A stretch of 40,381 bases of DNA from Chloroflexota bacterium (GTDB lineage: Bacteria > Chloroflexota > Dehalococcoidia > Lucifugimonadales > Lucifugimonadaceae), in the NCBI GenBank assembly GCA_013204545.1, contig JABMNN010000051.1, positions 1 through 40,381 on the forward strand, given 5' to 3'. The notes beneath the pieces are model-generated. The model saw nothing but the letters and a program-made list of their open reading frames with translations. It did not search any database and was not told the origin of the DNA. Below, piece after piece: positions 2,861 through 37,968 of this stretch; positions within the stretch are counted from its first letter, which is position 1; every line of letters starts with the position of its first letter. Both the position numbers and the translations under genes were made by a program.

Positions 2861-2904
2861 TCCGTTCGGCCATCTAACTATTGAGGACCCGACGCAGGGT
2901 GCCT

Positions 2905-4044
2905 GTGAGAATCAACTTGAAGATTGAAAAAATCGAAACCTTTTTTGTATCCCGATTTCTCGTTGTGAAAGTCACGACAGACGACGGAACCGAAGGCATT
3001 GGCGAATCGTGTTACTGGTCGTATCCAAAGGCGGCCGAGGCGACAATTCACGGGTTTGCTGACGCTCTAATCGGAATGGACGCCGGTGATATCGAACATA
3101 TTTGGAGCTATCTCTGGAGATACAACTCTGCGTTCCGCGGGAACAGCATCGGCGGTGCGATTAGCGCTATCGACATGGCACTCTGGGATATCAAGGGTAA
3201 GCGGCTTCAAGCACCCGTATGGGATCTGCTAGGCGGCAAAGTTCGCCAAAAGATTCGTGGTATCGCGCAAGGAATCGGCGGCAACACTCCCGAAGAGTGT
3301 GCAGTTGGCGCAAAGAAAGCGTTCGATCAAGGCTTCTCCGCTTTAAAGTTCACTCCAATGCCTAAGAACTGGGCTGAACTTACTTACACCAAGATGATCG
3401 GTCTGGCAGTTGAGATGGTCGGCGCTGTTCGAGAAACAGTTGGCTGGGATTTTGACATTGGAATCGAGATTCACCGAAACATGCAGCCACACGAGGCGAT
3501 TGTGTTCTGCGAAGAAGTCGCAAAGCTAAGGCCGTATTTCATCGAAGATCCGATTGTTCCCGATTCAGTCGTTGCCATGGGCGAGGTAGCAGCCAAAATG
3601 CGACTTCCACTGGCAATCGGCGAACGAAACATGGGCATCTGGGAATTTCGTGAGTACGCTCAATTGGCTAAGCCTGCATTCTTCAAGCCCGACATCGCTG
3701 TCGCTGGTGGAATTACCGGAGTGAAGAAGATAGCAACCATCGCCGAGGCCCATCACATCAAGATTTGCCCGCACAACTTCCAGGGTCCTATCGCTACCGC
3801 TGCATGTATCGCTATAGGTACTTCGTCACCGTCTTGGGACGTTCAGGAGTCAGTTCAGGAAGAATTACCACCAAGACGCGACATGACCAATGAAATCATC
3901 AAACTTGAGCGTGGATGGTACACACCATCAGAGAAGCCCGGACTCGGCGTCATCTTCAACGAAAACGCCCCCGCAATGCACCCGTTCGATCCTGCCATGG
4001 TGGCTCCACCGATACGTGAAGACGGCAGTGTGGCGCTGAAGTAA
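2905..4044 (+). CDS. Second mandelate racemase/muconate lactonizing family protein (enolase superfamily)
   Basis: This 379-residue protein is a diverged paralogue of the protein at 358. It has the same residue set: Glu188-Ile-His190, Glu214 in FIEDP, Glu240 in IGER, His290 in PHN and Glu315 in VQE. The capping domain motif SAIDMALWDIKGKRL is at 87-101. Chemistry is expected to be Mg2+-dependent abstraction of a proton alpha to a carboxylate, most likely dehydration of a sugar acid. I chose the GTG at 2905 because AGGG at 2896-2899 sits five bases upstream and because family members begin close to the KIEKIET segment. An in-frame TTG at 2881 would add eight residues but has no ribosome binding site. 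Only 44 bases separate it from the dehydrogenase gene, so co-transcription is likely. Confidence 0.9.
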   Translation: MRINLKIEKIETFFVSRFLVVKVTTDDGTEGIGESCYWSYPKAAEATIHGFADALIGMDAGDIEHIWSYLWRYNSAFRGNSIGGAISAIDMALWDIKGKRLQAPVWDLLGGKVRQKIRGIAQGIGGNTPEECAVGAKKAFDQGFSALKFTPMPKNWAELTYTKMIGLAVEMVGAVRETVGWDFDIGIEIHRNMQPHEAIVFCEEVAKLRPYFIEDPIVPDSVVAMGEVAAKMRLPLAIGERNMGIWEFREYAQLAKPAFFKPDIAVAGGITGVKKIATIAEAHHIKICPHNFQGPIATAACIAIGTSSPSWDVQESVQEELPPRRDMTNEIIKLERGWYTPSEKPGLGVIFNENAPAMHPFDPAMVAPPIREDGSVALK

Positions 4045-4104: not shown

Positions 4105-4187
4105 AAATCTTCCTACATCGGCTTGCGCTGAAACCGGTCGATGAATCGCCACACCCTCCAATTTCATACCCAATCAGGGATGGACGG

Positions 4188-4658
4188 TTATATCCGCGCC
4201 CTAATGAAGGTCAAAATCTCCTGTGGATTCATTCTGCCAAGCTGAGTCGTCGCGTACATCGATGCAGCGACAGTGCCATCCGGTCGAAGTACAAACTCGC
4301 AAGGTTGAATCATCATCGACCCTTTTCTTTCGCCAACCCAAGCACCTAATTTTTCAGCGAGAGCAACGTCGACGGTGTGAGCAACAGGGAATGAGAGATC
4401 ATGATCGGTGTGAGTTTGAGCGGTATCGGGATCGCCGTCGGCATTGCCGGCGACTATCTTGACCCCCAGTTCCTCGAATTCAGCAAATGAAGCTTCCATG
4501 TCGGCTAACTGCCGAGTGCAGTAGGGTCACCAGCCACCTCGGTAGAACAATACATAAGTCCAGCTTCCTTCGACATCTTTGGGAAGAGAAAGAGTTCCTC
4601 CTCCGGCAATTGACAATTCAATGTCTGGAAACTGATCGTCCACCAGAAGCATGGTCAT
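4188..4658 (-). CDS. Peroxiredoxin/thioredoxin-like protein with in-frame UGA at the active-site Cys (candidate selenoprotein, UxxC)
   Basis: Read through one in-frame UGA (codon 44, minus strand 4529-4527), the gene encodes a 156-residue redoxin-domain protein of the AhpC/TSA class. The sequence around the UGA is FYRGGW-UGA-PYCTRQ. In this family the motif is RGGWCPYC, so the UGA replaces exactly the first Cys of CxxC and gives UxxC with Cys47. No other stop or frameshift interrupts the frame, and both halves match the family fold: FPDIEL near 10-15, a beta strand before the motif, and FPVAHTVD and FVLRPDGTVAASMY after it. The start is the ATG at 4658, preceded by AAGGA with a seven-base spacer. 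A SECIS-like hairpin follows the UGA. The likely role is thiol-disulfide exchange or peroxide reduction. A nonsense mutation in an ordinary Cys gene is the alternative, since other genes nearby are decayed. Confidence refers to the redoxin gene; I put the selenocysteine reading at about 0.75. Confidence 0.85.
4501..4515 (-). promoter_or_regulatory. Candidate bacterial SECIS hairpin
   Basis: In the mRNA sense the stem is UCGGC pairing with GCCGA, five perfect base pairs closed by the loop AGUUA. The loop starts 16 nt after the UGA at 4529-4527. Bacterial SECIS elements lie inside the coding region just after the UGA, with a short upper stem and a G early in the apical loop, typically 16 to 37 nt from the UGA; this hairpin fits at the near limit. 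Two further pairs (A-U and C-G) could form below a small internal loop. A competing hairpin, ACUGC with GCAGU, starts five nt after the UGA and cannot coexist with it. Confidence 0.6.
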
Positions 4659-4815
4659 ATATTCGTCCTTCGAACAAGCAGTGACTAAATTGATTTGAGC
4701 CTTTGTTTTTGCAGCGACTCGCCTAAGATGTTCGACTTTACCCGAACGATGCAGAATGAGCGAGCGATTCTTCTTCTCTATCGGATTTAGAGGGTTGGAG
4801 GGTCGGTGCATTCGT

Positions 4816-18993: not shown

Positions 18994-20390
18994 ATGGTTA
19001 AGCCAAACATCGTGCTTATCAATTGCGACGATCTTGGATACGGAGATCTAGGCGTTTACGGATCTAAAGTCACAAGACATCAGCTCTCGACAAGATGGCT
19101 GAAGAGGGGGTGTTTTTTACAGATTTCTACGTCGCCTCAGGTGTTTGTTCACCATCGCGAGGGGCACTGCTCACAGGCTGTTACCCGCAACGGATCGGAT
19201 TCGGAGAGTTTGATGGATTTAGAGTGTTATTCCCTGGTGACGGAATTGGGCTCAATCCCGATGAAACGACAATAGCAGGTGCCTTAAAAGACGTTGGTTA
19301 CTCAACAAAAATTATCGGTAAATGGCACTGTGGCGATCAGGAAGAATTCCTCCCGCCAAATCACGGCTTCGACAGTTATTTTGGACTTCCTTACAGCAAT
19401 GACATGGGACGTCAGGCCGAAGACATTACTATCGACGACCACAATCGGCGGGAGCAGCTTTGAAGTCGTCCACCGCTATCGCTACTTCGTGACAAAGAAG
19501 TAATTCAATAGCAGCCTGATTTACGCGCCCTCACCGAGCGTTATGCTGAAGAAGCAGTTCGATTCATACGCGACAACAACGGGAACCCGTTCTTCCTCTA
19601 CTTCGCCCATATGTATGTGCACTTGCCTCTTTATGCACCCGAGAACCTCGTGACTGCCTCTGAAAACGGCGATTACGGTGCCTGTGTCGCTGGTGTTGAC
19701 TGGGTAGCAGAGGTTCTTTTTGATGAATTGAAACGACAGAAGTTAGATGAAAACACTCTTGTAATTTTCACCAGTGATAACGGCTCAAGATTGGCAGATC
19801 AATGTGGAAGCAACGGTAAATTACGCGGTAAAAAAGGCACAACATGGGAAGGTGGACAGCGGGTTCCGTGCATCATGCGGTGGCCTGGAAAAATCCCCGT
19901 TGGAGAAGTTCGTAACGGACTTGTTGCATCGATCGATTTCTTCCCTACTATTGCCAAACTTACAGGGGCTGAGGTTCCGCAAGACAGAACGACCGATGGA
20001 GTAGACGTATCAACTCTGATGTTCGCAACTGAACCCATCGAGTCGCCGAGAAGCGAGTTTTTTTACTATGACGGTAATAATCTCGAAGCGGTGTGCGACG
20101 ACAAATGGAAGCTGCACGTACGCAAAGTCGATGAGAAGACCAACGAGCTATACGATCTCGAATCCGACAAAAGCAAAACCGCAAATATGTTCGACACTCA
20201 CCCTGATGTTGTCGCTCGACTTACAGGACTGATCGAAGCGTGTCGGCAGGATCTAGGAGACAAAGCGAACGGGGTCACGGGAAACGATGTCCGACCAGCG
20301 GGCCGAGTCGACGATCCCGACACACTCACCCACCCCCACCCTGAACACCCCTACATCTACGCCGAATACGATAAGACCGAACGCGGCTAG
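18994..20390 (+). pseudogene. Arylsulfatase-type sulfatase, heavily decayed
   Basis: The ATG at 18994 has AGGAG upstream, and the gene starts well: PNIVLINCDDLGYGDLGVYG is the classic sulfatase N terminus with its metal-binding Asp pair. A missing A near 19072 shifts the frame; restored, it reads GSKVNKTSALDKMAEEG. The formylglycine motif CSPSR (Cys codon 19146-19148) and GKWHCGD are intact. The same frame then has a TGA at 19461-19463 and a TAG at 19509-19511 in the segment PPLSLLRDKEVIQ. It is open again to 20390, with FTSDNGSRLADQCGSNGKLR and ELYDLESDKSKTANMF. One deletion and two nonsense codons make loss of function very likely. The enzyme would have removed sulfate esters, probably from polysaccharides. 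The downstream mutarotase gene follows after 21 bases and may have been in the same transcript. Confidence 0.9.
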
Positions 20391-36936: not shown

Positions 36937-37968
36937 ATGACCGATGATCTAGTGAACAGACGGCTAAAAGCGGGGAAGCTTCCACCCGAGCTGCTAGCCC
37001 GTTTCCTCGGTGACTTAGTGTCTTCAGACAAAAGAATCCTGCTCGGTCCGGGTGTAGGTGAAGACGCGGCATTTGTATCGTTCGGAAGCACTACTCTCAT
37101 CGCCAAATCCGATCCAATTACTTTCGCAACCGATCGTATTGGCTGGTACGCCATTCAGGTCAATGCAAACGATATCGCGGCGTGCGGAGGTACTCCAAAG
37201 TGGTTCTTGGCCACGCTTTTGCTACCAGAAAATGAACCTGCTTTTACCGTACGAAACATTTTCGCTCAACTCCGTGATGCAGCAAATAAGCTCGGAATCA
37301 CACTCATCGGAGGACATACCGAGATAACCGTCGGTATATCCCGACCAATAATTTCCGGAACCATGCTTGGCGAAGCTGCTCCATCAGAAACCGTAAAAAC
37401 ATCCTCGGCAAATGTCGGTGATGACGTAATTCTCACCTCAGGCATCGCAATCGAGGGCACCGCAATCATCGCTCGGGAGAGCAAGGGCGAACTGCTCGCC
37501 GCCGGACTCTCGCTACCAGTAATTCTCAAAGCAGCAGATTTTTTGGATTCGCCGGGCATATCAATAGTGAAAGCAGCGAAGATCGCCACATCGACTGGGT
37601 ACGTCACCGCAATGCACGATCCCACCGAAGGTGGGCTTGCAGGAGCCCTTGATGAACTAGCTCGTGCCTCGAACACCGGGATTGCGATTAATGCCGACCA
37701 TGTACGAATATACCCTGAAACCGAAGCAATCTGCAGAGCTCTCGAGCTTGACCCTTGGGGGCTAATCGCCTCGGGGGCGCTGTTGATTACATCTAGTCCA
37801 AATGGCTCTCAGCCCATCATCGATGCGCTCGGTGGCTTTGGTATCCCGGCAACGGTAATTGGCAAGATAACTGGACCAGAGGACGGCCTCACTCGAAATA
37901 TCAACGGAGCCACGGAACAGCTACCAGAGTTCGAACGAGATGAAATCGCCAGGCTTTACTCAACTTGA
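36937..37968 (+). CDS. AIR synthase-related protein (HypE/SelD/PurM superfamily)
   Basis: The 343-residue protein has the ATP-binding landmarks of the PurM superfamily: GVGEDAA at 39-45, VNANDIAACGG at 75-85, GGHTEIT at 125-131 and MHDPTEGGLAGAL near 227-239. It lacks the C-terminal Cys tail of HypE and the N-terminal Cys/Sec-containing loop of SelD, so it is neither a standard hydrogenase maturation protein nor a selenophosphate synthase. The true reaction is unknown; an ATP-dependent phosphorylation of a small molecule is the family theme. It starts 12 bases after the lipoprotein gene on the same strand. Confidence 0.85.
   Translation: MTDDLVNRRLKAGKLPPELLARFLGDLVSSDKRILLGPGVGEDAAFVSFGSTTLIAKSDPITFATDRIGWYAIQVNANDIAACGGTPKWFLATLLLPENEPAFTVRNIFAQLRDAANKLGITLIGGHTEITVGISRPIISGTMLGEAAPSETVKTSSANVGDDVILTSGIAIEGTAIIARESKGELLAAGLSLPVILKAADFLDSPGISIVKAAKIATSTGYVTAMHDPTEGGLAGALDELARASNTGIAINADHVRIYPETEAICRALELDPWGLIASGALLITSSPNGSQPIIDALGGFGIPATVIGKITGPEDGLTRNINGATEQLPEFERDEIARLYST

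Follow-up and report, generated by a model that had tools for sequence, protein, structure and literature searches.

Codon 44 of a redoxin gene from an uncultured Chloroflexota bacterium, an in-frame UGA, almost certainly encodes selenocysteine (Sec), and the gene is very probably a selenoprotein of the peroxiredoxin (Prx)-like UxxC class with a putative reductase step. Taken together, the conservation of the UGA, the presence of the Sec machinery, the low level of non-synonymous change, and a covarying downstream hairpin make a genuine selenoprotein very probable. The gene lies in the window, the whole stretch of 40,381 nucleotides that was analyzed, which is contig 36 of a source genome of 2.95 Mb in 134 contigs, given as 92% complete. 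The features of the locus are as follows.

Positions 4188 to 4658, minus strand: predicted selenoprotein gene, an AhpC/TSA-type Prx-like redoxin of 156 codons, with UGA codon 44 read as selenocysteine.
Position 4658 (start ATG) and positions 4190 to 4188 (stop TAA), minus strand: ends of the frame, from translation.
Positions 4666 to 4670, minus strand: AAGGA, likely ribosome-binding site 7 nt ahead of the ATG, from the sequence.
Positions 4527 to 4529, minus strand: in-frame TGA at codon 44, which supplies the first of the two redox positions in UxxC (WUPYC), from translation.
Positions 4518 to 4520, minus strand: TGC for Cys47, second redox position, aligned with the peroxidatic Cys of peroxiredoxins.
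Positions 4501 to 4515, minus strand: candidate bacterial SECIS hairpin, TCGGC-AGTTA-GCCGA, with a 5-bp stem and a 5-nt loop.
Positions 4302 to 4304, minus strand: Pro119 codon, at the alignment column of the peroxiredoxin catalytic Arg.

Translation of positions 4658 to 4188 gives a frame whose sole stop across the 156 codons is this TGA, set within RGGWUPYCTRQL (U44-P-Y-C47). The coordinates of the original prediction, which named no strand, are thereby confirmed for a minus-strand gene. The best Pfam match of the read-through protein is PF00578 (AhpC-TSA), at 1.5e-24 and 86.8 bits (cut-off 26), followed by PF08534 (Redoxin) at 1e-12; each match spans residues 6 to 132 and so extends to either side of codon 44. 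The original prediction had described a UGA at the first Cys of RGGWCPYC as the only interruption, two halves that both fit the family, and a good ribosome binding site, and the single stop, the Pfam match across codon 44, and the AAGGA at 4670-4666 bear out each of these points. Adjoining the gene on the plus strand are three successive long open reading frames (358-1491, 1610-2860, and 2881-4044), of which the third encodes an enolase-superfamily (MR_MLE) protein and the first resembles one by eye.

The source genome encodes the machinery that Sec insertion requires, each component scoring above its cut-off: a tRNA-Sec with anticodon TCA on contig C83 (65.1 bits, cut-off 47), selA (518 bits, cut-off 268), selB (315 bits, cut-off 242), and selD (374 bits, cut-off 125). 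The original prediction had named the absence of selB and tRNA-Sec from a complete genome as an observation that would count against it, and with all four genes present that objection falls away. In 14 control genomes, the same cut-offs were exceeded by tRNA-Sec in five, selB in two, selA in one, and selD in two. A second tRNA match above the cut-off in the source genome (49.1 bits) was rejected as a tRNA-Sec, since ARAGORN calls it a tRNA-Ser. The selD gene (L071, contig C91) itself carries one TGA, in CAGUAGK; this is a UAGK motif, and passages of PMC13188914 give UxxK as the motif of SelD selenoproteins. Judging from this motif, selenophosphate synthetase SelD is probably a selenoprotein as well. 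The window also encodes an AIR-synthase-like protein (36937-37968, plus strand; PF00586/PF02769) with a weak likeness to selD (81 bits, below the selD cut-off); it is not the selenophosphate synthetase.

Homologues have either UGA or Cys at codon 44, as the comparison suggested alongside the original prediction revealed. The TGA is shared at this codon by two Chloroflexi MAG records at 75% and 72% identity, which correspond to G012 and G008, both from the genus of the window. We compared the source genome and 59 relatives, accepting matches with E up to 0.001. Redoxin matches were found in 48 of these 60 genomes, and 36 of the 60 had one or more matches with a TGA, a count that takes in weak matches to paralogues. 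The selB gene was above cut-off in 53 of the 60, a group that contains all 36 genomes with TGA-bearing matches; the seven genomes lacking it (G022, G023, G024, G032, G033, G052, and G056) had none.

A search at the level of the order, with E up to 1e-20, returned matches in 106 of 250 genomes and 41 of 97 genera. The matches total 112 with the source gene counted; two begin past codon 44, and TGA occurs in 107 of the 110 that cover it. By stop content, 106 of these 110 contain exactly one TGA, one (in G552) has a TAG in addition to a TGA, and the remaining three are free of stops, with Cys at codon 44 in G548 and in the second G470 copy and Ser in a G027 copy. Every one of the 36 loci inspected (21 + 14 + 1) has its TGA at exactly codon 44, with the remaining 71 of the 107 TGA matches counted by TGA content alone. 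This recurrence among the order's relatives excludes a chance UGA in the source gene. The Ser copy (L058, second gene, G027:C43:48456-48914) stands in tandem beside a TGA copy, and its TCA codon is one base away from TGA, so that it is possibly a duplicate that has lost Sec.

Beyond the order-level search, a draw of 400 genomes from the phylum gave a match (E up to 1e-20) in six, the source genome counted, and the other five, all distant Chloroflexota, encode Cys in WCPYC or WCPFC (5/5). The same five genomes do have selB, so possession of the machinery is not enough to impose Sec. At codon 44, Cys is likewise present in 18 of 18 loci from other groups (L023-L040), in a set that is skewed to Cys by scan patterns that included WCPYCTRQ and that takes in five close Pseudoalteromonas sequences. 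A plasmid search returned 82 records, all below 60% identity, and a scan of viral contigs for relatives of the redoxin found none.

Two alignments of the UGA genes underlie the conservation results. The first (A1) has 21 rows, one UGA copy per genome; it leaves out the second copies G004:C34 and G012:C9, the partial sequences G031, G017, and the G029 fragment, and weaker paralogues. The second (A3) has 33 rows and leaves out L099 and L102 of the 14 new loci L093-L106. The search pattern had missed L099, L102, and L104; L104 was added afterwards, and L099 and L102 were inspected and have UGA.

The original prediction also held that a SECIS-like hairpin follows the UGA, and the hairpin that we located at 4515-4501 agrees with this in both its geometry and its covariation among relatives. 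Its loop, AGUUA, begins 16 nt past the UGA and has G as its second base. The bacterial SECIS model, as set out in passages of PMC13188914, specifies a loop of 3-9 nt, an upper stem of 4-16 bp, a G within the first two bases of the loop, a spacing of 16-37 nt from the UGA, and a minimum free energy at or below -7.5 kcal/mol. The hairpin conforms to the loop, stem, G, and spacing rules, with the spacing at the minimum allowed. For comparison with the -7.5 rule, the hairpin alone has an energy of -6.8, and a 60-nt segment constrained to form it has -10.7; the free minimum of the 60-nt window segment is -11.0, in a structure unlike the hairpin. Taken alone, the window sequence shows no folding advantage over its shuffled versions (z 0.10), and an Rfam search over 4150-4700 found no SECIS, its single match lying below the gathering score.

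Across 21 aligned sequences, 92.4% of the 105 stem cells pair, a value that none of 500 shuffles reached, and sliding the partner strand by one to three columns lowers pairing to 10-46%. With 33 sequences, 92.1% of 165 stem cells pair. The outermost pair alternates among U-A, G-C, and C-G, and joins a third codon position to the second codon position of another residue. Both-sided changes occur in two of the five pairs, an extent that 170 of 500 shuffles also reach. The hairpin is not kept in the Cys homologues (n = 18), where 33 of 90 stem cells pair. TTA or TTG encodes the loop Leu in 20 of 21 genes but accounts for 36 of the 239 Leu codons elsewhere in them, and a second gene set gave 11 of 11 in the loop and 19 of 149 elsewhere. 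Among 12 relatives hand-picked for folding out of 31, the free minimum coincides with the constrained fold in 11, the exception being G618. RNAalifold, run on the 21-row alignment, preferred a different hairpin, ACUGC...GCAGU, which we rejected: its cells pair at 93.3% in the perfect 5-bp form, no higher than the 93.6% of shuffles, and it contains no both-sided change, so it reflects conserved codons.

The protein itself adopts a thioredoxin/peroxiredoxin fold according to prediction. An AlphaFold2 model with Cys put in for Sec has a mean pLDDT of 95.2 and a pTM of 0.91, and it places residue 44 directly ahead of a helix at 45-56. The top solved structure in Foldseek is Bcp4 of Sulfolobus (TMq 0.90), followed by other peroxiredoxins, and ResA-type proteins appear at TMq 0.72-0.76. 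ResA is an extracytoplasmic CxxC protein; the redoxin resembles the ResA type in having two redox residues two apart at the start of a helix, and differs from it in having no apparent signal peptide by eye. Nine residues or positions are invariant in all 30 rows compared (R40, G41, W43, residue 44, Y46, C47, R49, Q50, and L51). Cys120 is present in nine of the 21 Sec rows and so probably does not serve as the resolving residue in general.

These features bear on whether the selenoprotein is a reductase or a true peroxidase whose activity is enhanced by Sec. For a peroxidase speak the top Pfam match to AhpC-TSA, the nearest solved folds, and the alignment of Cys47 with the peroxidatic Cys. Classical peroxiredoxins have a TxxC motif, with Thr three residues ahead of the peroxidatic Cys, and a catalytic Arg that faces this Cys. 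In the alignment to a solved peroxiredoxin, whose Thr, peroxidatic Cys, and Arg we take to have these functional roles, Sec44 falls at the Thr and Pro119 at the Arg, so that two classical peroxidase residues are absent from the redoxin and are replaced by Sec or Cys and by Pro119. This Pro is unchanged in every one of the 21 Sec rows and in five of the nine Cys rows, which are all of those that reach it. A UxxC motif facing a Pro is the layout of a thiol:disulfide oxidoreductase. Because Sec and Pro occupy the peroxiredoxin Thr and Arg positions in this layout, we favor a reductase by a modest degree, and a Sec-enhanced peroxidase seems rather unlikely. The "peroxiredoxin-like" label of the original prediction thus stands for the fold and does not carry over to peroxidase activity, for which the Thr and Arg active-site residues are missing.

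Given the Sec genes in the genome and the conservation of the hairpin, this downstream element would recruit SelB with Sec-tRNA-Sec, and SelB would then insert selenocysteine at residue 44. In the predicted protein, Sec44-Pro-Tyr-Cys47 would open a helix of the Trx/Prx fold. The motif and fold point most readily to a cytosolic thiol:disulfide oxidoreductase, in which the Sec44 selenolate would attack an oxidized substrate and Cys47 would resolve the mixed bond, leaving a Se-S bridge to be re-reduced by cellular thiol systems.

That the gene is a pseudogene, with codon 44 a nonsense mutation, is a far less probable explanation, and we consider it highly improbable. The original prediction had cautioned that the window holds real pseudogenes with UGA codons, and this proved correct for at least one of them. 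In the sulfatase gene at about 19068-20390 on the plus strand, a UGA (19461-19463) and a UAG (19509-19511) interrupt the same frame, and the pieces to either side match PF00884; judged by its sequence, this gene is a pseudogene. In relatives, too, a related redoxin occurs in decayed form with additional stops, at L112 (G001:C65, two TGA and a TAA) and L110 (G018:C56, a remnant with a TAG); in the former, one TGA sits at the Trp preceding the Sec codon. Against such decay in the source gene stand the recurrence of TGA across the order and at one codon in every locus inspected, the lack of a second lesion, and the pattern of substitution. In comparison with G001, the least saturated pair, dS is 1.45 and dN 0.133 upstream of the UGA, and dS is 1.55 and dN 0.167 downstream of it, so dN is far under dS on either side. 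Five other comparisons gave non-synonymous proportions of 0.13-0.19 and synonymous proportions of 0.68-0.85 on either side, the latter being near or past saturation. The similarity of the values before and after the UGA indicates that one kind of constraint acts on both parts of the gene.

Two further explanations are less probable still, and very nearly negligible. A sequencing or assembly error that changed TGC or TGT to TGA could be entertained for a draft assembly in 134 contigs, but the same TGA stands at the same codon in other genomes. Reassignment or near-cognate decoding of UGA as Trp, Gly, or Cys, with no role for selenium, conflicts with the presence of tRNA-Sec, selA, selB, and selD, with the confinement of TGA-bearing matches to selB-positive genomes among the 60, and with ordinary codon use in the window, where UGA terminates nine of 29 sampled ORFs and TGG is a regular codon (169 occurrences); since the ORF calls treat TGA as a stop, these ORFs lack internal TGA by construction. 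We thus rejected the pseudogene, error, and reassignment explanations on the basis of the recurrent TGA, the dN and dS values, the link to selB, and the use of UGA as a normal stop.

With the selenoprotein reading retained, the gene can be placed among known families. A Prx-like UxxC selenoprotein family is on record in passages of PMC13188914, PMC2398784, and PMC9312934 (in all three as PF00578) and of PMC1088965, with 225 sequences of "Prx-like 1" from the GOS survey and 22 Prx-like sequences from the Sargasso Sea; the original prediction was therefore right that the class was already known. As that class is characterized in these passages, the source protein shares with the Prx-like UxxC oxidoreductase ("Prx-like 1") an AhpC-TSA domain, a UxxC active site, the existence of Sec and Cys versions, and a SECIS candidate right behind the UGA. 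It differs in coming from uncultured Chloroflexota and in a TGA that is kept in nearly all homologues of the order, a comparison made with the published descriptions and not with the reference WP_010940744.1. Sec-peroxiredoxins of the TxxU type (PF00578/COG1225) belong to the same fold family, but in the accounts given in PMC13188914 and PMC1088965 their Sec is the second, peroxidatic residue, whereas here Sec comes first and Cys second. The redoxin-type UxxC family described in parts of PMC13188914 (PF08534) and PMC2398784 ("Prx-like 3") has the UxxC motif and a redoxin-type domain in common with the source protein, which scores better on PF00578 than on PF08534. The source gene adds one more member to the published Prx-like UxxC class, and this addition is real and well supported.

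Chloroflexi are not mentioned in the main texts of PMC13188914, PMC2398784, PMC9312934, and PMC12013277. A search of open-licence PMC papers found none that links selenoproteins to SAR202, with which we do not equate the order here. The lineage appears to be little treated in these sources. In the source genome, five of the 14 PF00578 matches carry TGA. Four further redoxins, L077, L078, L082, and L111 (on contigs C109, C31, C13, and C57), have one TGA each, in FTGGU, WUTFC, WUAC, and CUINC, respectively, and the first of these is a candidate of the TxxU type.

We regard as evenly balanced the fuller proposal that the order's UxxC redoxin is mainly a selenoprotein, kept by selection and served by a compact SECIS, that it acts as a Sec-dependent disulfide reductase built on a peroxiredoxin fold with Sec in place of Thr and Pro in place of Arg, and that it is one of five TGA redoxins in the genome. 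Standard annotation would break this gene in two or label it a pseudogene, yet the evidence points to a working gene and to selenium use in several redoxins of this lineage. Should this be confirmed, the order would offer many natural variants of one SECIS, together with closely related forms of one protein that have Sec, Cys, or Ser, with which to test why Sec persists.
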